Source: Chitinophagales bacterium (GTDB lineage: Bacteria; Bacteroidota; Bacteroidia; Chitinophagales; CAIODY01). From it: DNA of 64,000 nucleotides. The translations under genes and the position numbers were made by a program. This document shows positions 23,832 through 64,000 of this stretch, in pieces. The notes under the pieces are model-generated. The model was given only the letters and a program-made list of their open reading frames with translations. It was not told the DNA's origin and searched no databases. Positions within the stretch are counted from its first letter, which is position 1; each line of letters begins with the position of its first letter. The stretch is from the NCBI GenBank assembly GCA_947452995.1, contig CANGEV010000001.1, positions 248,001 to 312,000 on the forward strand, read 5' to 3'.

Positions 23832-25463
23832 TTACCAATCTACATCCAAATTCAAGATTTTGGTGAAGTTGACGAGATCGGGATATTTTTTTGATAAGAC
23901 ATCAAAGCGTTGAGCAGGCGTATAAGGCTTACCATTATTTAAATTTGTGTTATTCGGTTCTTCTGAAGCTGCAGGGATTGCATTGGCAACTACGCCATTA
24001 TTTGCAGGTTCCTTTGATTCAGCTGGAGCACTCGCCTGTTGTTTCATTTGCTCCAATTGCTCTTTTGCTTGCTTTTGTAATTGCTCCCTGCTTAGTAAGC
24101 CCTTCAAGGAAGGAGAAGGAGTATTAGAAGCAGAATGAGTAGGAGAAGGAGAAGCAGAATGAGTTGAGGCTACAGAATGAGTAGGAGAAGCAGAATGAGT
24201 TGAGGCTACAGAAGGAGTTTGAGATGCAGAAGGAGTTGATGTTACAGAAGGAGTAGCAGTAGGAGAAACAGAAGTAGTACTAGAAGGAGTTGGAGAGACA
24301 GAAGGAGAAACTGAAACTACATCATCTTGCTCATTTTTTTTTTTGTCCAAGGAAACAGCGCCTTGGAGTGCAGAATTTAAATAACACAAGCGAATGAGTG
24401 TCATCTCCGTATGAAGGCGTTTATTCTTCGCCATGCGGTATTGCTGATCTGCTTCGTTAATTAAATTGAGCGCACTCAATAAAAACTGACTTGGCGTTGA
24501 TTGCGCTTGTTGCAAGTACTTACGTTTCACATTTTCGCTCGCTTCCAACATTTGGATGGTGTTAGGATATTTTGCAACCAAAATATTTCTAAAGTGCTCC
24601 CCTAGTCCATTCATTAAGGTATCGCCCTCAAATCCTTTCAAGATAATCGCTTGAATGGTTTGCATGACGGTAGCCACATCTTCCGCGAGCATTGCATCGG
24701 TGAGTGTGAAATAAAAATCCGCGTCAAGGATATTCAGTTGATCTAAAACGGCTGCAAGTTCTATATTTCCATTACAAAAGCTAGCCATTTTATCAAATAG
24801 GCTGAGTGCATCCCGCAAGCCGCCATCTGCTTTTTGGGCGATAAGATGAAGAGAATCTTCATCGGCTTGTATCCCCCTATCAGAAACGATTTTTTTCAAC
24901 TGTCCTACGATCGCATCCATTGGAATACGATGAAAGTCGAATACCTGACAACGACTTAAAATTGTTGGTAGAATTTTATGACGTTCGGTTGTAGCCAAGA
25001 TAAAGATTGCATAGGATGGTGGCTCTTCTAAAGTCTTCAAAAAAGCATTGAAGGCTTGAGAGCTCAACATATGAACCTCATCAATAATATAAACTTTAAA
25101 CTGCCCGCCTTGTGGTGGAATTCGCACCTGTTCAATCAGCTGACGAATATCGTCAACGCTGTTATTACTAGCAGCATCCAACTCATAAATATTAAAAGAA
25201 GTGGATTGATTGAATGAAACGCAACTAGGGCATGTCTCACATGCTTCATTTGTTTCGGTAGGACTTTGACAGTTAATTATTTTAGCAAGGATACGCGCGC
25301 AGGTTGTTTTACCTACCCCACGTGGTCCGCAAAAAAGAAAAGCATGAGCGAGTTGATGTTGCTTAAGAGCATTCAACAAGGTGACAGTAATGTGCTCTTG
25401 CCCCACCACGTCAGAGAAACGGGCCGGACGATACTTCCGCGCTGATACTACATACTGTTCCAT
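23832..25463 (-). CDS. dnaX: DNA polymerase III subunit gamma/tau
   Basis: The clamp-loader ATPase of replication. The 543-residue product starts MEQYVVSARKYRPARF; a longer frame back to 25616 has no family similarity. It has the Walker A FCGPRGVGKTTCARILAK, a four-Cys zinc module (CQSPTETNEACETCPSC), the Walker B YIIDEVHML, the SRC sensor in ILSRCQVF, and a domain III helical collar ending near residue 373. There follow Lys codons in an A11 tract, a Ser/Thr/Pro/His-rich repeat linker (about 385-460), a helical part (LLSREQLQKQAKEQLEQ), and a short tail ending LNLDVDW. The A11 tract probably programs a short gamma form (see the separate site). It is first in a dnaX-slyD-yjjG series. Confidence 0.95.
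   Translation of the reverse strand: MEQYVVSARKYRPARFSDVVGQEHITVTLLNALKQHQLAHAFLFCGPRGVGKTTCARILAKIINCQSPTETNEACETCPSCVSFNQSTSFNIYELDAASNNSVDDIRQLIEQVRIPPQGGQFKVYIIDEVHMLSSQAFNAFLKTLEEPPSYAIFILATTERHKILPTILSRCQVFDFHRIPMDAIVGQLKKIVSDRGIQADEDSLHLIAQKADGGLRDALSLFDKMASFCNGNIELAAVLDQLNILDADFYFTLTDAMLAEDVATVMQTIQAIILKGFEGDTLMNGLGEHFRNILVAKYPNTIQMLEASENVKRKYLQQAQSTPSQFLLSALNLINEADQQYRMAKNKRLHTEMTLIRLCYLNSALQGAVSLDKKKNEQDDVVSVSPSVSPTPSSTTSVSPTATPSVTSTPSASQTPSVASTHSASPTHSVASTHSASPSPTHSASNTPSPSLKGLLSREQLQKQAKEQLEQMKQQASAPAESKEPANNGVVANAIPAASEEPNNTNLNNGKPYTPAQRFDVLSKKYPDLVNFTKILNLDVDW
24127..24318 (-). repeat. Low-complexity minisatellite in the dnaX linker
   Basis: The plus strand here is almost all purine. 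It contains degenerate tandem units, the clearest being a 36-bp unit starting at 24151 and again at 24187. The encoded linker is built from S, T, P, H, A and V in motifs such as SASPTHSVAST and SVSPTATPS. The frame is kept, as expected for repeat units of multiples of three. The flanking dnaX sequence has no such bias. Confidence 0.85.
24334..24367 (-). promoter_or_regulatory. Predicted dnaX slippage site: hairpin plus A11 tract
   Basis: On the coding (minus) strand a perfect 7-bp hairpin TCCAAGG/CCTTGGA with loop CGCTGTTT (24367-24346) is followed after one base by eleven A residues (24344-24334), read GAC AAA AAA AAA AAT GAG. One extra A, or a -1 shift, gives AAA AAA AAA AAA TGA, an immediate stop. 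One missing A gives ATG AGC AAG ATG ATG TAG. Both yield a protein that ends just after the clamp-loader core (377 residues in the first case). Known precedents are the ribosomal shift at A AAA AAG in E. coli dnaX and the transcriptional slippage at A9 in Thermus dnaX. Confidence 0.7.
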
Positions 25464-56590: not shown

Positions 56591-56642
56591 TTGTGGAAAG
56601 AAGAGTTCGAAAACAACGGAAAAAGAACGTAATTTCGCCACA

Positions 56643-57398
56643 ATGAAAATGAGCTGGACCCAACGTATTATTCAACAAATCCCTAATCTAATCACGATGG
56701 GGAATTTGTTTTGTGGCGTATACGCGATTATCCTACTTTTTGGAGAAAAGATACATCTAGCTTGCTTACTCGTTTTCGTAGCCGCCCTCCTCGATTTCTT
56801 AGATGGCTTCGCGGCCAAACTACTCAACGCAAAATCGCCGATGGGCGGACAGTTAGATTCCTTAGCGGATGTCGTTACGTTCGGAGTTGTACCCGGGTTG
56901 ATGATGTATCAATTATTGGCCTATGCGTATCAATTGAAAGATAATGCCATTGGCACTAGTAATGCTTGGTTTGCCATCGCCTTATTATTACCGATAGCGG
57001 GTGCTTGGCGCCTAGCCAGATACAACATTTCAACACCTCCTGCGGATGGTCGTTTTTATGGACTACCCATTCCAATGATGGGCTTAACAGTAGCATGTCT
57101 ACCAATGACCTTGTTCATGAATAACCCGGTAATCAACGAATGGATTTTACGCCCTTGGATTTTAAATCTTATCATTATTGCCCTTGCTTGGTTGATGACG
57201 TCTAAAATACCTATGATGAATTTGAAGCCAGTAAAATGGACAATTGCAGGTAATGAAATCCGTTTATTGCTGATTGTCTTATCCATTGCTGCAACATTCT
57301 TATTAAAATATGCGGCAGGACCGATTATCCTTGTATTATACATCGGATTATCGGCGCTTCAGAACAAACCTACATTAGAAGAAAACAATACGAATTAA
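56643..57398 (+). CDS. pssA: CDP-diacylglycerol--serine O-phosphatidyltransferase
   Basis: A 251-residue integral membrane enzyme making phosphatidylserine, the precursor of phosphatidylethanolamine. The CDP-alcohol phosphotransferase motif D-G-x(2)-A-[RK]-x(8)-G-x(3)-D-x(3)-D appears as DGFAAKLLNAKSPMGGQLDSLAD. About seven hydrophobic spans follow the IPNLITMGNLFCGVYAI start. The ATG at 56643 is preferred; an earlier frame start lies inside the previous gene. A TAATTTCG box at 56630-56637 may be a -7 element. It is followed after one base by purS, so pssA-purS-rsmI look like one operon. Confidence 0.93.
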   Translation: MKMSWTQRIIQQIPNLITMGNLFCGVYAIILLFGEKIHLACLLVFVAALLDFLDGFAAKLLNAKSPMGGQLDSLADVVTFGVVPGLMMYQLLAYAYQLKDNAIGTSNAWFAIALLLPIAGAWRLARYNISTPPADGRFYGLPIPMMGLTVACLPMTLFMNNPVINEWILRPWILNLIIIALAWLMTSKIPMMNLKPVKWTIAGNEIRLLLIVLSIAATFLLKYAAGPIILVLYIGLSALQNKPTLEENNTN

Positions 57399-57399
57399 T

Positions 57400-57657
57400 A
57401 TGAAATTTATCGCCGACATCAAAGTAATGCCTTTGAAAGAGTTGTTAGACCCACAAGGTAAAGCCGTTTTGAATGGCTTGAAGAACATGAACTTTACCAA
57501 TGTGAAGAATGTGCGTATCGGTAAACATATCCAATTAGAAATCGATGCTAAAGATGCACAAGAGGCAAATGCAAAGACGCAAGCAGCTTGTAAGCAACTT
57601 TTGGCGAATCCAGTAATGGAATACTTCGAATTCACGCTTTCAGGAGCAGGAATCTAA
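57400..57657 (+). CDS. purS: Phosphoribosylformylglycinamidine synthase subunit PurS
   Basis: An 85-residue subunit that bridges PurL and PurQ in the fourth step of purine synthesis. The pattern IADIKVMPLKELLDPQGKAVLNGL, VKNVRIGKHIQLEI and a C-terminal ANPVMEYFEFTL is that of PurS. PurQ and PurL are not in the window. It is tightly packed between pssA and rsmI. Confidence 0.94.
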   Translation: MKFIADIKVMPLKELLDPQGKAVLNGLKNMNFTNVKNVRIGKHIQLEIDAKDAQEANAKTQAACKQLLANPVMEYFEFTLSGAGI

Positions 57658-57660
57658 AAA

Positions 57661-58338
57661 ATGGAGCCGGCAACGCTTTATATCGTTCCAACGCCTATCG
57701 GCAACTTGGAGGATATCACCTTGCGCGCCTTAAAGGTGCTGAAGGAAGTCGACACCATTCTATGTGAAGACACGCGCACTAGCTCCTATTTATTGAAGCA
57801 TTACGAAATCACGCGCCCGCTACAGGCCTATCACCAACACAACGAACATAAGGTTACGCAGCAGTTGGTCGAGCGTTTGTCGGCAGGAGAAAAAATGGCG
57901 ATGATTAGTGATGCGGGCACACCGGGTATTTCCGATGCTGCTTTTTTATTAATCCGTGCCTGCCATGTGGCGGGTGTTAAAGTAGTTTGCCTCCCTGGCG
58001 CTACTGCACTGATCCCCGCATTAGTTGCTACAGGATTTCCCACCGACCGATTTACCTTTGAAGGCTTTTTGCCGCATAAGAAAGGAAGACAAACACGCAT
58101 TAAAGCAATCAGCCAATCTGATTGCAGCGTAGTGATGTATGAAAGTCCGCACCGCCTGGTAAAGCTCATTGATGAGTTTATCGAATTCGCTGGTCCGGAA
58201 CGCATCGCTGCCGTGAGCCGTGAGCTCACCAAGCATTTTGAAGAAAACAAACGCGGCCCCCTAACGGAGCTCAAAGTCTATTACGAAAATCACCCCCCAA
58301 AAGGAGAGATCGTATTTATTTTAATGGGAGAAAAGTAA
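57661..58338 (+). CDS. rsmI: 16S rRNA (cytidine(1402)-2'-O)-methyltransferase RsmI
   Basis: A 225-residue enzyme that 2'-O-methylates C1402 in the decoding centre. It has the tetrapyrrole-methylase fold with YIVPTPIGNLEDITLRAL, CEDTRTSSYLLKHY, MISDAGTPGISDAAFLL, CLPGATALIPALVATGFP and FEGFLPHKKGRQTR. The C-terminal part is slightly short compared with E. coli RsmI (286 residues) but usual for Bacteroidota. It starts three bases after purS. Past its stop is a 560-base repeat region. Confidence 0.95.
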   Translation: MEPATLYIVPTPIGNLEDITLRALKVLKEVDTILCEDTRTSSYLLKHYEITRPLQAYHQHNEHKVTQQLVERLSAGEKMAMISDAGTPGISDAAFLLIRACHVAGVKVVCLPGATALIPALVATGFPTDRFTFEGFLPHKKGRQTRIKAISQSDCSVVMYESPHRLVKLIDEFIEFAGPERIAAVSRELTKHFEENKRGPLTELKVYYENHPPKGEIVFILMGEK

Positions 58339-58436
58339 GTGGTGAATGATAAAAAGGGAAAAGGGAATTATTCACTATTCACTATTCACTCCCGATTGTA
58401 TCGGAATCACCCTTCACCATTAACCCTAACCCGCTC

Positions 58437-58457
58437 CGATTCGTGTCTCACGAATCG
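58437..58457. repeat. Short perfect inverted repeat
   Basis: cgattcgtg, three-base loop tct, cacgaatcg: a 9-bp perfect stem. A related but broken form (cgtgtctcacgaaacc) recurs at about 62685-62700, also just before the cggagttcgatta motif. Confidence 0.8.
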
Positions 58458-58470
58458 CACTAAATTAAAA

Positions 58471-58860
58471 ATCGGAGTTCGATTAGCTTTTAAATTGCTG
58501 TGGGAAGACTCAAAGCAAAAAAGAAATCCTTTGCTAAATAAAAACTTCGAGTCTTTAGCCCTTCGTGTCTTCGAACACTTCTTCAACTAATAATCGGAGT
58601 TCGATTAGCTTTTAAATTGCTGTGGGAAGACTCAAAGCAAAAAAGGAATCCTTTGCTAAATAAAAACTTCGAGTCTTTCGCCCTTTGTGTCTTCGAACAC
58701 TTCTTCAACTAATAATCGGAGTTCGATTAGCTTTTAAATTGCTGTGGGAAGACTCAAAGCAAAAAAGGAATCCTTTGCTAAATAAAAACTTATTGTCTTT
58801 CCGCCTTCGCGCCTTCGAACACTACTTCAAATAAAAATCGGAGTTCAATTACTTTCGGAA
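58471..58860. repeat. 122-bp tandem repeat, three copies plus a partial fourth
   Basis: Units start with atcggagttcgatta at 58471, 58593 and 58715, and a partial unit with one change (atcggagttcaatta) starts at 58837. Copies differ by a few bases. Inside each unit are nested inverted repeats: aagactc...gagtctt outside (unit 3 changed to ttgtctt), and agcaaa...tttgct with ggaatcc between. The same boundary sequence recurs at 62423 and 62712. Confidence 0.92.
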
Positions 58861-58902
58861 CCAAACCCCAATTCTTAATTCCTAATTCATAATTGCGAAA
58901 GG

Positions 58903-60930
58903 TTAGTTCTCAATTACAAATTTCCTCACCTCACTAAACCCTTCTTTCACATTACTCATCTTCACCCAATACATACCGGCATCGAGAGGTAGGTCAATAT
59001 TAATCTTACCCGTGCTATTGTCTTCATTTTGTGCATACAACAATTTGCCATCGAGCGACCTAATCTCAACTTGCATTTGCTTACATGTCGTGCAATTATT
59101 TTCCAAGATAAATCGACCCGTATTTGGATTTGGATAGATACTCATTTCGAAATTATGGGTAACCTCTAATGCCGTTGGTGTCGCCGTTTCGTCATTCACA
59201 TTTTCGGTTGTAGTGACAGTTGTTCCGATTGCTTCGCCAGATAGTTTGCAATTGCCTTTATAAATTTTCAACGTCGCTGTACTATCGCAACCTTTATAAT
59301 TGGTAAAGTGACGAACATAAGTACCTGGCATATTCCAAGTATAGGTCATCCCGTTCCACATATACGTTTGTGCCTGACAGAGCGTAACAGTTGTTAAGCT
59401 ACTAGAATTGTTATACAATAAGCGAAGACGTACGGTGCTATCGCAGCCGTAGCGGTTCCTTAGATGAATAAAGTAGGTGCCGCTTTGTTTATAATAAACC
59501 CCTTGATACAATAGGCTATCGCCTTGGCAGATATAATTGGTTTGAACGAAATACGAACTTGGGCGTGTTAATACATTCAGGGTGACAACGCTATCACAAC
59601 CATAGCGATTTAATAGAATGACAGTATGTACGCCATTTGCTTTATAGTATTTACCATAATATTGTACGCTATCATTCGGACAGCGATAGATGGTTACTTT
59701 AGAATAGGTCTTACTCCGTTTTACTAATGTAAGTTGAATTACAGAATCACAGGCGCTATACCCTTGTAAGGTTACTTTATAGATTCCTGCCGCCGTAAAT
59801 GTTTGGCCACCATATACTAAATTAGAGCCAACACATACAGGTAATGTAACATACGTTATCGGAATAGCGGCACGATATAATGCACGCAAACGAACGGTGC
59901 TATCACATCCTGTTGCACTCGTATAATGGAAATAATAGGTGCCTGCGGTACTGATCGTTTGACCATTGAAGACAAAACTTTTTCCTTTACAGAAATACTG
60001 TGTGATAACGGTATAGTACAATGGATAAACATTTAGGTTGAGGATGTCTATTGAATCACAACCGCGATGGCTTGTGAGGTGTACGGTGTCTGCGCCTGTA
60101 CGGGAATAGTATTGTCCGTTCCATAAGGTACTATCTCTGCGGCATAGGTTCAATGAGGTAGTATGTGTCACCGTGCAAGGCTGACCGCTTTGATACAAAG
60201 CTGTAATCTCCGCTGACGTAAGTGCACGGTTCCAAATACCGATGTCGTCTATATCACCATAAAATGTGTTGCCGTAAGGGTCGGATCCAACATACAATTT
60301 CGATGTTCCTGAACCAATAATATTTTCAGTAAAAGCCCCATAGTTATTTGAAGAAGCCAGCTGTCCGTCCAAATATAAATTATATGTAGTGTTAGCTATA
60401 TCCCGCGAATAAATAGCTTGATGCCAATTCCCATCACTAATAGCGATAGATGATTGAGTACCATAATTATAAACCCCTGAAGACACGGCTCTTAATAAAC
60501 CCATAGGCCCATCGCCCAAATACCAAACTGTGGCATTAGAATTATATGAACCATAGTAAAGGATTGGTAAATTTGTGCTTACTCCAAAATTAGCCGTCGT
60601 CCGAAACCAAACAGATACAGTGAAGGAAGAAATTCCAAAATTTGCTATCTGTTGAGAATTATTCATTGCTAAATAAATTCCATTTAATACATGAGGACTA
60701 CTGTATGTATAACTATGATTCGAAATACCATTCCTATCTATCCCTAATGGTAAGGGCCATAAGGAATTATTTAGCTGCGCATTATTCCCATTCCCGCTCT
60801 CATCATTCGAATTACCATTAAAGGGCCACCATCCTACAAGACCTGAATTAGGAACATAACTTGGCAATGTTTGCGCCTCAGCAAATTTGATTAATGATAG
60901 ACATAAAAAAAAATACAATATTTTTTTCAT
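58903..60930 (-). CDS. LamG-domain surface protein with six GCDS repeats and type A T9SS sorting domain
   Basis: A 675-residue exported protein. Signal peptide ILYFFLCLSLIKFAEAQ; LamG/concanavalin-like domain (about 25-250) with LVGWWPFNGNSNDESGNGNN, FTVSVWFRT, YNLYLDGQLASSNNYG and FYGDIDDIGIWNRAL. From about residue 255 six repeats of about 51 residues follow, each with a first Cys, an aromatic-G-x-x-Y segment and the closing [GA]CDS (RGCDSIDIL, TGCDSTVRL, SACDSVIQL, YGCDSVVTL, YGCDSTVRL, KGCDSTATL). The Cys pairs suggest one disulfide per repeat. The C-terminus (IYPNPNTGRFILEN, IRSLDGKLLY, LDAGMYWVKM) is a type A sorting domain. It is cotranscribed with a shorter paralog five bases upstream. 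Confidence 0.88.
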   Translation of the reverse strand: MKKILYFFLCLSLIKFAEAQTLPSYVPNSGLVGWWPFNGNSNDESGNGNNAQLNNSLWPLPLGIDRNGISNHSYTYSSPHVLNGIYLAMNNSQQIANFGISSFTVSVWFRTTANFGVSTNLPILYYGSYNSNATVWYLGDGPMGLLRAVSSGVYNYGTQSSIAISDGNWHQAIYSRDIANTTYNLYLDGQLASSNNYGAFTENIIGSGTSKLYVGSDPYGNTFYGDIDDIGIWNRALTSAEITALYQSGQPCTVTHTTSLNLCRRDSTLWNGQYYSRTGADTVHLTSHRGCDSIDILNLNVYPLYYTVITQYFCKGKSFVFNGQTISTAGTYYFHYTSATGCDSTVRLRALYRAAIPITYVTLPVCVGSNLVYGGQTFTAAGIYKVTLQGYSACDSVIQLTLVKRSKTYSKVTIYRCPNDSVQYYGKYYKANGVHTVILLNRYGCDSVVTLNVLTRPSSYFVQTNYICQGDSLLYQGVYYKQSGTYFIHLRNRYGCDSTVRLRLLYNNSSSLTTVTLCQAQTYMWNGMTYTWNMPGTYVRHFTNYKGCDSTATLKIYKGNCKLSGEAIGTTVTTTENVNDETATPTALEVTHNFEMSIYPNPNTGRFILENNCTTCKQMQVEIRSLDGKLLYAQNEDNSTGKINIDLPLDAGMYWVKMSNVKEGFSEVRKFVIEN

Positions 60931-60935
60931 ATTAC

Positions 60936-61916
60936 TTATTTAATAAATTTTATTGTGGTATTCATACATTTCATAAGATATAAGCCTGAAACTAAATGAT
61001 TCAAATTAATTGTATTATTGCCTTGTTCTAATAAACCATTCTTAATCAAACAACCATCGCTACTATAAATGCTGTATGAACAAGGAATTTCTATATTAAA
61101 TAAATTAAGTTTATCATCAGAAACAGTATACTTAAATCCCGAATTGTTTGAAAGTAATTCTGCATTTGTTAATCCTGAGTACAAGGCTAAAATTTCTTTG
61201 TCAGATAAAACGCGATGCCAAATACCAATATCGTCAATATCACCATAAAATGGGTTTCCATAAGGGTTCGCACCAACATATATTTGAGAATTACCCGAAC
61301 CTATAATATTCTCAATAAATGCTCCATAATTATTAGTCGATAGCTTGACACCATCTAAATAAATACGATACTCATTCATAGCAACATCACGCAACCAAAC
61401 TGCATTATGCCAAGATGTGTCAGCAACTGTATTTGAACTAGCAACAACATAGTTATAAGTACCACTTGTTACACCTGTAAGCATACTATTTACATATGCA
61501 CCTAAATACCAACTGGTGTTTATTGAACCATTTGCCCCAAAATATAACATTGGCAAATTGGTACTTACGCCAAAATTTGCTGCAGTACGGAACCATACAG
61601 AAATTGTATATGAATTAGTGCCAAAATTCGCAACACTTGCTGGATTGGAAATATACAAATAAACCCCATTTAAAACATGAGGCGAGCTAAATGTGTATGC
61701 ACTATTTGCTATGTTATTTCTGTCCATTGCCAATGGAAACGGATAACCTGTGTTAGAAAGTAATGCATGATTCCCATTCCCACTTTCATCATTGGCATTG
61801 CCATTAAACGGCCACCAGCCTACAAGGCCGTTGACTGGTACGTATGAAGGCACTTGCGCCAAGGCACTACTTACTAGGCTTAGCAATAAAAAAGCAAAGA
61901 ATAAAATTCGTTTCAT
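60936..61916 (-). CDS. LamG-domain surface protein, short paralog with type A-like sorting domain
   Basis: A 326-residue exported protein. ATG at 61916 (MKRILFFAFLLLSLVSSALAQ) is preferred to a frame start 13 codons earlier. Residues 22-250 parallel the next gene almost motif by motif (LVGWWPFNGNANDESGNGNH, YTISVWFRT, EYRIYLDGVKLSTNNYG, FYGDIDDIGIWHRVL), showing a tandem duplication. Here the LamG domain is followed directly by a C-terminal domain (YSIYSSDGCLIKNGLL, NTINLNHLVSGLYLMK) of the type A kind, with no GCDS repeats. It is divergent from the small XRE regulator, which may control the pair. Confidence 0.85.
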   Translation of the reverse strand: MKRILFFAFLLLSLVSSALAQVPSYVPVNGLVGWWPFNGNANDESGNGNHALLSNTGYPFPLAMDRNNIANSAYTFSSPHVLNGVYLYISNPASVANFGTNSYTISVWFRTAANFGVSTNLPMLYFGANGSINTSWYLGAYVNSMLTGVTSGTYNYVVASSNTVADTSWHNAVWLRDVAMNEYRIYLDGVKLSTNNYGAFIENIIGSGNSQIYVGANPYGNPFYGDIDDIGIWHRVLSDKEILALYSGLTNAELLSNNSGFKYTVSDDKLNLFNIEIPCSYSIYSSDGCLIKNGLLEQGNNTINLNHLVSGLYLMKCMNTTIKFIK

Positions 61917-62028
61917 TTTTAATTTTTTGATTGTTACAAATTTAACTATAGGCATTTATGCCTATCTATAAATCATATTATACATTATTCCATTTGAGAA
62001 TTATTTATAACCAATCCGAAGCTTTTAT

Positions 62029-62036
62029 TAATTTTG
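62029..62036 (+). promoter_or_regulatory. Putative -7 element (TAATTTTG) for the XRE regulator
   Basis: TAATTTTG fits TAnnTTTG and lies 14 bases before the ATG at 62051. No -33 box at proper spacing was seen. Confidence 0.45.
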
Positions 62037-62050
62037 GTAGAATCAGCAAC

Positions 62051-62278
62051 ATGGAATTAGCCTCCTCTTTAATCGGTCAGAAAATCAAAAAATTGCGTGA
62101 GTTGAAAAACTTCACCCAAGCACATATGGCCACTGAACTCGGGATTACACAAAGTGCTTATTCTAAAATCGAACAAGGTGACACAGACATCACCTATGCT
62201 AAAATGTCGAAAATCGCCGAAGTACTAGGTATCTCGCCAGAAGAGATCGCCGCCTTCAACGCAAGATTACGTATCTAA
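62051..62278 (+). CDS. Small XRE-family helix-turn-helix regulator
   Basis: A 75-residue DNA-binding protein consisting of a single Cro/C1-type HTH domain: IGQKIKKLRELKNFTQAHMATELG, ITQSAYSKIEQGDTDITYAKMSKIAEVLGI. The ATG at 62051 (MELASS) is chosen over one 31 codons upstream that precedes the likely promoter. There is no toxin partner next to it. It is divergent from the LamG pair. Its last 22 bases are duplicated 240 bases downstream with the adjoining non-coding element. Confidence 0.88.
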   Translation: MELASSLIGQKIKKLRELKNFTQAHMATELGITQSAYSKIEQGDTDITYAKMSKIAEVLGISPEEIAAFNARLRI

Positions 62279-62640
62279 TGAAATCTGATAAAATTAAAAT
62301 ATCACCCTGCCCTGCAGCAGGGTTTAAAATCATGTCCTGAAAATTTATTTCTATTAGCATGCCGCCCTGCTATTCAGCAGGGCTTTATTACGATTGGTGA
62401 TTCGAAAAGCACTAAATTAAAAATCGGAGTTCGATTAGCTTATGAATTGCTGTTCATAGAGATTCCGAACGCAGTGAGGAATCTGTTCGTTGCAAATCAA
62501 CGCAAGATTACGTATCTAATGAAATCTGATAAAATTAAAATATCACCCCGCCATGCGGCAGGGTTTGAAATTTTGTCCCTGCATTTATTTCTATTAGCAA
62601 GCCGCCCTGCTAGCCAGCAGGGCTTTATTTGAAAATAAAA
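62257..62640. repeat. Duplicated REP-like hairpin doublet
   Basis: Two copies of a roughly 125-bp element start at 62257 and 62498. Each begins with the final codons of the XRE gene, then a conserved AT-rich stretch and two palindromes about 60 bases apart. Copy 1: ccctgc/gcaggg at 62305-62322 and ccctgct/agcaggg at 62365-62382. Copy 2: ccgc/gcgg at 62548-62558 within 62546-62563, and ccctgct/agcaggg at 62605-62622. The text atttatttctattagca is the same before the second palindrome of both copies. No gene is supported in this stretch, up to 62762. Confidence 0.88.
62460..62484. repeat. Inverted repeat AGATTCC...GGAATCT
   Basis: A 7-bp stem agattcc (62460-62466) and ggaatct (62478-62484) around gaacgcagtga. 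It lies between the two hairpin-doublet copies. From memory, similar 'attccgaacgnagtgaggaatct' strings are scattered in many Bacteroidota genomes; this was not checked. Confidence 0.6.
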
Positions 62641-62762
62641 AATGTATAACGAATAATTAATAATTGGGGACACCGCCCCGTTGCGTGTCTCACGAAACCC
62701 ACTAAATAATAATCGGAGTTCGATTATTCATTTATTCATTATTCATTCCTACATTATTCATT

Positions 62763-62797
62763 AAAAAAGGCCTCGCAATTTGCGAGGCCTTTTTTTA
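62763..62797 (-). terminator. Bidirectional terminator of the rpmB-rpmG-DUF4295 operon
   Basis: The sequence aaaaaaggcctcgca, loop att, tgcgaggcctttttt is a 15-bp perfect inverted repeat with A and T tracts at its ends, and it follows the DUF4295 stop codon by a few bases on the minus strand. It can act in both directions. Confidence 0.92.
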
Positions 62798-62799
62798 AC

Positions 62800-62967
62800 T
62801 TATCCTTTTAAGTGATCAGCTAGGTTGTCTTTGTGAACCATAGCTTCTTTGAACACATAAGCACCAGACTTAGGTGAACGTTCACACTTGATAACTTTAG
62901 TGTAGGCCTTGGCATTCGGATCAATCGAACCTTTGGCCTTAATTGCGGTTTTTGCTTGCTTAGCCAT
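62800..62967 (-). CDS. DUF4295-family small basic protein
   Basis: A 55-residue protein missed by length filters. It reads MAKQAKTAIKAKGSIDPNAK and ends SPKSGAYVFKEAMVHKDNL. It is Lys-rich, and the core [KR]SPK[ST]GAYxFKExMVHKD is the Bacteroidota DUF4295 signature. In that phylum it is encoded right after rpmB and rpmG, as here (eight bases after rpmG). A ribosome-associated role is likely from its context and charge but not proven. Confidence 0.9.
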   Translation of the reverse strand: MAKQAKTAIKAKGSIDPNAKAYTKVIKCERSPKSGAYVFKEAMVHKDNLADHLKG

Positions 62968-62975
62968 ACTACTGT

Positions 62976-63158
62976 TTATTTAATTTCTTTATGAATGGTG
63001 TACTTACGCAAGATTGCATTGAATTTACGCAATTCAATACGCTCAGGGTTATTTTTCTTGTTCTTAGTGGTGATGTAACGGCTTGTACCCGCTGCTCCAC
63101 TTGACTTATGTTCGCTGCATTCTAAGATAACTTGAACGCGATTTCCTTTCTTTGCCAT
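62976..63158 (-). CDS. rpmG: 50S ribosomal protein L33
   Basis: A 60-residue ribosomal protein: [43 protein letters not shown] and a final YTIHKEIK. It keeps one Cys near residue 14 but lacks the second pair of the zinc-ribbon form, so it is the zinc-independent type. It is 20 bases after rpmB. Confidence 0.95.
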
Positions 63159-63178
63159 AATCGTGTATAGATTTTAGA

Positions 63179-63412
63179 TTAGCGCATTTCCTTTTCTTGA
63201 ATTTCCTTCAAGTACTGGTAAATACCTTTTTTGTTAATGTTACGGATAGCTGCTGCAGATACGCGCAATTCGATCCATTGATTGAATTCAGGAACGAAGA
63301 ACTTCTTGCGTTGCAAATTCGGCAAGAAACGACGCTTCGTCTTGATATTGGAGTGCGACACATTGTGTCCATACATTGGTCGCTTTCCGGTTAAGTCACA
63401 TACTCGTGCCAT
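63179..63412 (-). CDS. rpmB: 50S ribosomal protein L28
   Basis: A 77-residue ribosomal protein: [41 protein letters not shown] and [20 protein letters not shown]. The ATG at 63412 gives the conserved N-terminus; a longer frame to 63487 would add a non-homologous leader. It is first in a three-gene ribosomal operon. Confidence 0.96.
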
Positions 63413-63543
63413 GATACTTAAAGGCTTTATTTTATTATCGGGAGCGCAAATATCCAAAATTCTTCTCTTAAAAACAAACTTTTTCACTTTTATTTTAAAA
63501 TAAAGCGAAAATCTTTAATTTCAAGAAGCTAAACACTGGTACT

Positions 63544-64000
63544 ATGCGCCTTTCTACTCGACAAAAATACGCATTTTTAGTCACTTCTTCCCTACTCACG
63601 GCGCTTTTAATTTTTTTAAGCAATACCTTCCTTTCCCTTCCACCTCTCGGAAAAGTACTCGACCCCTTCCACGGCCTACTCCAACAAGCTGAAAACACCC
63701 ATTCTCCCAATCAATCCCCTCTCTTACATTTCCCGCAGCTGCAAGATAGCGCCACCGTCCTCTTCGACGCACAACGTCATCCGCATATCCTAGCACAAAT
63801 CGATCACGACGCCTATTTCCTACAAGGCTATCTCACCGCCCAAGATCGCCTTTGGCAAATGGATATTCAAACACGCGCCGCCGCCGGCAGAATCTCTGAA
63901 ATCCTCGGACCGAAAACGCTCGAATTCGACCGCAAACAGCGCCGCAAAGGCATCGCAAACGCCGCCCGCAATAGCCTCGCTCTCGTACTCTCTGACAGTA
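63544..64000 (+). CDS. Penicillin acylase-family N-terminal hydrolase (5' part)
   Basis: The frame starts with ATG at 63544 and runs off the window, giving 152 residues. An N-terminal membrane anchor or signal (FLVTSSLLTALLIFLSN) is followed by ATVLFDAQRHPHILAQIDHDAYFLQGYLTAQDRLWQMDIQTRAAAGRISEI-type sequence. The motif A-x-[DE]-R-[LM]-[FW]-Q-M-[DE]...R-x-x-x-x-G-x-[LI]-[AS]-E is diagnostic of the penicillin amidase/acylase (Ntn-hydrolase) alpha subunit. The catalytic Ser after the spacer peptide would lie beyond 64000. Codon use is more C-rich than the neighbours. Natural substrates of such enzymes are often acyl-homoserine lactones or peptides, but this cannot be told. Confidence 0.85.
   Translation, partial: MRLSTRQKYAFLVTSSLLTALLIFLSNTFLSLPPLGKVLDPFHGLLQQAENTHSPNQSPLLHFPQLQDSATVLFDAQRHPHILAQIDHDAYFLQGYLTAQDRLWQMDIQTRAAAGRISEILGPKTLEFDRKQRRKGIANAARNSLALVLSDS

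Follow-up and report, generated by a model that had tools for sequence, protein, structure and literature searches.

The tandem array that follows rsmI in the window (the whole 64,000-nt stretch of DNA analysed here) probably arose as units multiplied locally in tandem within a palindromic repeat of intergenic DNA that has two parts, a hairpin D followed by a hairpin A, and that would belong to a BIME- or MITE-like family; the gain and loss of units through recombination or slippage at A is what we infer. Among the genomes searched, this family has so far been seen only in the array's own genome. The array itself is confirmed as real, since Tandem Repeats Finder (TRF) places it at 58466-58855 with a period of 122, 3.2 copies, 93% matches, 0% indels and a score of 668, and a direct-repeat search returned three overlapping 145-nt copies at spacings of 122 and 122, the second and third being 97% and 90% identical to the first. 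The three-copy, 122-bp tandem element that an earlier note had read after rsmI is thereby upheld, as is its position between convergent genes: rsmI (TP_methylase, PF00590) ends at 58338, with the array starting 128 bp downstream, and the convergent gene, which encodes a Por secretion tail besides its LamG-type domain, has its 3' end at 58903, about 50 bp beyond the array. That the array is non-coding also stands, as no gene fits it and the sole listed open reading frame (ORF) of at least 80 aa touching it (58339-58590, 83 aa, GTG start) spans the gap behind rsmI and reaches into unit 1. The array and its borders comprise the following parts:

58439-58455, + strand: D hairpin (ATTCGTG-TCT-CACGAAT), left border of the array, a repeat common to the genus (sequence reading and exact-core counts)
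58470-58485, + strand: A palindrome, copy 1 (AATCGGAGTTCGATTA; genome-wide A counts)
58488-58586, + strand: B module, copy 1, an imperfect palindrome of 99 nt (R1 profile, 93.6 bits)
58592-58607, + strand: A palindrome, copy 2 (A motif search and sequence reading)
58610-58708, + strand: B module, copy 2 (R1 profile, 93.8 bits)
58714-58729, + strand: A palindrome, copy 3 (A motif search and sequence reading)
58732-58830, + strand: B module, copy 3, chimeric (R1 profile, 89.2 bits)
58836-58873, + strand: A palindrome, copy 4 (58836-58851, one mismatch), plus an apparent decayed right half of that hairpin; closes the array on the right

Read in order, the D hairpin is followed by three A-B pairs and by a decayed A hairpin that ends at about 58873, and each unit of 122 bp is a composite of the 16-nt palindrome A, the 99-nt module B and the joins between them. 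B can be described as an imperfect palindrome of about 100 nt, because its own profile (R1, a sequence-only profile built from 16 copies) matches the opposite strand of 13 of the 17 full copies in the genome (18.7-33 bits). The nested inverted repeats noted earlier are hence present, though imperfect, and ungapped repeat extension within 58200-59100 gave no inverted pairs. The 'partial fourth' unit, by contrast, amounts only to the fourth A palindrome and the apparent decayed right half, the latter a by-eye reading against C25:4474 and C13:39261. Unit 3 is a chimera of unit 2 and a copy on another contig: in the alignment of B copy 3, its left half is 100% identical to unit 2, and its right half (alignment columns 63-109) is 100% identical to the copy at C14:56010 (C14b2) as against 80% to units 1 and 2. 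The number of units is that of a 36-contig draft assembly in which two contigs (C32 and C15) end in another repeat array.

The earlier note had proposed a search for further genomic copies and had named their absence as speaking against the element; many were found. With one unit as query, BLASTN against the own genome, whose 36 contigs total 2.54 Mb, gave 22 matches at E<=0.001, and R1 gave 36 at E<=0.1, namely 17 full B copies (at least 58 bits), 6 fragments and 13 opposite-strand matches, where 16 of the 17 full copies were part of the model and score by construction, the copy at C11:58145 being the one outside it. The full copies are spread over 11 places, all of them outside ORFs of at least 90 aa. 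The A palindrome occurs in 17 exact and 4 one-mismatch copies, and with up to two mismatches in 28 altogether, compared with 1 for a control pattern. Across the genome, D-A elements are occupied by zero, one, two or three units, three being the state of the window. D, A-left and A-right without any B stand at C13:39231-39276, one B each is found in the elements at C14:49885 and C4:151779, and the element at C14:55857-56128 holds two, the first of which has diverged and is preceded by a decayed A. There is also a tandem of four B copies without A (C3:36833-37244).

The surroundings of 14 repeat clusters were examined, namely the 11 B places plus three others that hold A or fragments, a subset of all A copies and fragments; every one of the 14 is intergenic with respect to ORFs of at least 90 aa. 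Seven are in convergent, 5 in unidirectional and 2 in divergent gaps, the figures for the 11 B places being 5, 4 and 2; we make no claim of convergent enrichment, the window offering just 13 comparison gaps, 2 of them convergent. Several clusters are mosaics that also contain module C, i.e. TGTC-tagged CCCTGC hairpins (23 genome matches at up to one mismatch, control 0), and module E (ATTCCGAACGCAGTGAGGAATCT), which we take to resemble CGTC-type REPs. One further cluster, and the interval that joins most of it to the array, are found in the window itself:

62303-62726, + strand: second repeat cluster, in the order C1-C2-A-truncated B-E-C1-C2-D-A (pattern scan and sequence)
58335-62724, no strand: interval holding the array, two LamG genes, an HTH gene and most of the second repeat cluster (628 bp in the same-genus genome G002)

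Module E stands at 62462-62484 within this second cluster. Beyond it, at 62763-62795, a perfect 16-bp inverted repeat with a terminal T run is kept in the close relative and, unlike the array, looks like a terminator. Elsewhere in the window, degenerate tandem repeats of 18/36/72 bp and of the GAAGGAG type occupy 24109-24307 (TRF).

Searched with two units as query, 59 relatives, two same-genus and three same-family genomes among them, gave nothing at E<=0.001, and R1 had no match at E<=0.01 in the same-genus genomes G001 and G002. R1 gave three weak matches in two of the three same-family genomes; two of these (G005) read as octamer-ladder palindromes, which are discussed below, and one (G003) is mainly a single arm. 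A at up to two substitutions was absent from the 61 relatives' loci examined (189 kb), and a strict B-junction pattern had 0 matches in a broad collection of genome contigs from which the own genome was possibly left out. The own genome has 11 exact copies of the D core and G002 has 14, with 1 in G001 and none in 17 other relatives (reversed control 0). It follows from these D counts and from the R1 result in G001 and G002 that D extends across the genus and that B is at full strength in the own genome only, among genomes of which each stands for one species, so that 'only' refers to differences between species and not to strains within one.

At the syntenic site of G002, whose RsmI is 99% identical, the flanks correspond to window positions 56610-58334 (84%) and 62725-63596 (93%), and the array is absent, 628 bp standing in place of the 4,390 bp seen here. 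These 628 bp hold oppositely oriented D hairpins as well as other repeated sequence. The interval 58335-62724, which is edged by repeat clusters and in which one of the two LamG genes has a Por tail above the cut-off, is likely an insertion hot spot.

From our point of view, the array could have come about as follows. One 122-bp unit comprises the left half of A plus one B module. Each B in the array is flanked by directly repeated A copies, so that slippage or recombination between adjacent A copies would lead to the gain or loss of exactly one unit; single-stranded hairpins might take part in these events. Recombination with dispersed copies could further swap pieces between loci. Both unit gain or loss via A and exchange between loci are suggested by the occupancy series and the chimera. 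The array would then have no dedicated gene-regulatory job and would stand at gene ends because insertions are tolerated there. Among the points against amplification are that the series of zero to three units compares paralogous sites of one genome and not strains, and that the direct repeat of A beside B could be a target duplication, i.e. a trace of transposition. Taken together, such a series and a chimeric unit concisely illustrate, within a single genome, the steps by which such arrays may expand and trade segments.

Beyond the own genome, the weak R1 matches in the order include palindromes whose arms consist of tandem octamers (AAGRCRCN ... CTTNGYGY) and whose loops are unrelated. Judged by sequence, B seems to be a diverged relative of this broader octamer-ladder class, which extends over six phyla. 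In four other genomes of the order, six R1 matches reach E<=1e-4, four of which (G131 and G108) read as ladder palindromes, while two (G095 and G062) look unrelated. R1 scores 19-29 bits on the relatives' ladder palindromes, and the B copies of the own genome have no exact match (0) to the ladder pattern, which is present in 9 of 198 genomes of the order, not in the own genome, and has a control count of 0. A stricter pattern with more fixed letters found 34 loci in the broad collection of genome contigs, from 21 genomes by their titles, among them Acidobacteriota (Holophagaceae), Chloroflexota (Thermoflexus), Pseudomonadota (Azospirillum), Verrucomicrobiota (Verrucomicrobiales), Bacteroidota (Saprospiraceae) and, as a sixth phylum by title, Planctomycetes UBA4800. 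Ladder palindromes were recorded at loci L105-L138 and in G131, G108, G181 and other genomes.

In 35 such elements the ends remain complementary outside the patterned part. All 35 pair at the sixth outer position (28 A-T and 7 G-C), against a shuffle mean of 23.8; the fifth, seventh and eighth positions pair in 33, 15 and 21 elements, with shuffle means of 27.9, 10.3 and 14.8. These counts overstate the evidence, since elements of one genome are not independent. At positions 9 and 10 pairing stays within what the shuffles give by chance, the right side is almost invariant at positions 1-4, and an inner octamer position is without covariation. In the eight G131 copies the arms are 95% alike, a value inflated by the search pattern, as against 61% for whole loops (53% shuffled) and 51% for inner loops (48% shuffled). 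With 14 of the 35 palindromes overlapping a mechanically called ORF of at least 100 aa, 8 at an edge and 13 between ORFs, the class is not cleanly intergenic. A literature text search with eleven ladder strings found no relevant paper.

The earlier note had interpreted the array as a structured RNA or as a bidirectional barrier to transcription or mRNA decay at convergent gene ends, which we regard as very unlikely. The nested palindromes, the convergent setting here and at 4 of the 10 other B places, and the + strand RNA fold of the array in full (z -2.32, matched by 1 of 100 shuffles) would agree with such a role; single units, however, fold barely better than shuffles (z -0.8 on the + and -1.75 on the - strand), and the array on the - strand reaches z -1.61, with 7 of 100 shuffles as good. 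Neither the array nor 12 loci with ladder or repeat elements gave an Rfam match, for the array at the gathering score. Among 16 B copies the palindrome pairs in 86.7% of 256 cells (29-50% when slid by 1-3 columns; 87.5% in the outer helix of the B ends), yet shuffling among copies averages 85.5% and is as high in 27 of 500 cases, and no clear arm covariation is seen, both sides having changed in 1 of 16 pairs with a score reached by 35 of 500 shuffles. Folds, Rfam and covariation give weak support for an RNA gene, which was set aside on these grounds, though they do not prove its absence. A barrier fares no better, as no terminator-like site was found by pattern in 58300-58950, where shuffles average 0.6, as 6 of the 11 B places are non-convergent and as the array is missing in G002. 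Folding as single-stranded DNA gives z -2.85 for window positions 58680-58760 (B-right, A, B-left) and z -4.49 for the full A hairpin of the C14 locus, each beating all 200 shuffles, and z -5.21 for the composite D-A string. At the window's B-B junctions the A palindrome sits in the loop of the hairpin formed by the B ends, and at the C3 junctions, which lack A, two B ends form a short-loop hairpin (z -3.67). The evidence favours a DNA repeat over an RNA gene, which leaves the earlier interpretation partly supported; triplicated non-coding intergenic units need not be RNA genes. A DNA repeat could also spread as a non-autonomous element, with B, or A and B together, moved in trans, for instance by the genome's own IS200/IS605-type Y1 transposase, and A serving as target or end. 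We consider this unlikely, if less so than an RNA or barrier role. B copies are dispersed in the genome, and the complementary B ends provide the terminal inverted repeats of a MITE, though the shuffled mean given above is nearly as high as the observed pairing. A flanks B as a direct repeat in the window and at C14a, C14b2 and C4, which slippage may also explain, and C32:14122-14595 holds a Y1 transposase gene whose frame is open and in which an HUH-like motif can be read by eye. On the other hand, neither of the two Y1_Tnp family genes of the genome (on C32 and C6) is flanked by A, B or D in the stretches examined, and many copies share the same D-A context or stand in tandem, where recombination fits better than independent insertion. 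As a mover of A and B, the C32 gene was set aside, module C-type TGTC hairpins flanking it instead; near the C6 gene there is one A-like match with 3 errors. A phage, plasmid or viral origin was likewise dismissed: the array has no match in plasmid and phage collections, A plus GC (18 nt, exact) and the ladder pattern each have 0 matches in viral contigs, and one ladder element has 0 in plasmids.

The octamer-ladder class raises two further possibilities. Tentatively, B may be a lineage-specific descendant of this widespread, poorly described class (AAGRCRCN / CTTNGYGY) with its complementary, co-varying ends, the class being a hairpin, mobile or prone to recombination, that takes up or tolerates any loop and expands anew and independently in each lineage, and the array, with A lodged in the B-B hairpin loop, representing one stage of expansion. 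The other is that the repeated octamers are putative sites for a nucleoid or global regulator protein, for which the array would act as a multivalent binding platform. The B arms do resemble the ladder class, and in Geobacter metallireducens tandem octamers that are paired on opposite strands, at variable distances, have been read as 'predicted global regulator binding sites' (classes 1 and 2), for which Aklujkar et al. suggested IHF/HU binding, as given in the available part of PMC2700814. Those sites share the ladder architecture, with 8-nt (class 2: 8-9) tandem repeats on opposite strands, and the class 2 consensus TCTCCGTS[Y] resembles, by eye, the CTTCGTGT octamer (PMC2700814, in the same part); multicopy palindromic and direct-repeat sequences are also reported for G. 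bemidjiensis in the accessible text of PMC2996986. However, the Geobacter sites differ in sequence, their reading is itself a hypothesis, and B, whose arms are strongly diverged and which stands in tandem with A, has 0 exact matches to the ladder pattern in the own genome. As such, a binding platform appears highly improbable. The ladder class is a more interesting lead than the array and deserves a separate study; the same arms with unrelated loops across phyla would raise the testable question of what keeps the arms alike.

Independent of the array, the two transposase genes deserve mention. The C32 gene (IS200/IS605; L036 1381-1857, - strand) has TGTC-tagged hairpins on both sides, in flanks at about 1060-1400 and 1930-2212. 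Upstream are five ACCCTGCC...GGCAGGGT copies at a spacing of 58-59 bp, downstream three CCCCATTGG-type hairpins at a spacing of 121 bp and, by eye, a fourth hairpin. CGTC repeats, often with TGTC, are apparently without a dedicated transposase according to the available part of Di Nocera et al. (2013; PMC3733652), a statement to which this gene could be an exception. A general partnership of TGTC hairpins and Y1 transposases was rejected: in a check of 30 loci of the 58 genomes with matches (stems of 7 or more, flanks of up to 1.5 kb each, some cut by contig ends), TGTC stands beside a hairpin at the own-genome locus only and in 0 of the 29 relatives' loci, one of which has AGTC. The second Y1_Tnp protein, on C6 (L037 1408-1860, + strand), is a weak match (30 bits) in which no HUH motif was seen, and is probably decayed or domesticated. 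The same TGTC-hairpin repeats occur at the end of C32 and at C15:57463-57620, i.e. at both contig ends; the two contigs may adjoin, and such arrays may break the assembly.

In literature word searches, which covered titles and abstract openings among the matches listed, no description of this repeat family was met. Among known systems, ERIC is one of the RU elements of enterobacteria. RU elements resemble the present family as intergenic small mobile sequences of 103-168 bp that have been compared with MITEs, and belong to other hosts, the comparison being one by description from the available part of PMC2759123. The BrickBuilt MITE of Porphyromonas gingivalis is likewise an intergenic, multi-copy element of Bacteroidota (19 copies in one strain) and, like the array, has tandem repeats inside an element with inverted-repeat ends; its repeat unit is 23 nt, compared with the 122-nt composite unit here, again by description (PMC4596501, as far as accessible). 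The likeness to REPs and BIMEs lies in short intergenic hairpins, often at gene ends, clustered and mosaic, and the D, A and C modules resemble REP units (cf. the accessible part of PMC3733652), with the D and A hairpins forming small units in the 14 intergenic clusters. In the stretches examined around the two Y1_Tnp genes, no RAYT transposase of their own, flanked by the same repeat, was found for A, B and D, and B, with about 100 nt, exceeds the 20-40 bp of a REP. By eye, no GTAG or CGTC (TGTC) tag stands beside the A, B and D stems, so these modules are not classed among the tagged REPs; module C alone carries TGTC, as many CGTC repeats do in the same part of PMC3733652. Overall, the array is real yet fairly ordinary, an intergenic palindromic repeat of a kind known in many bacteria.
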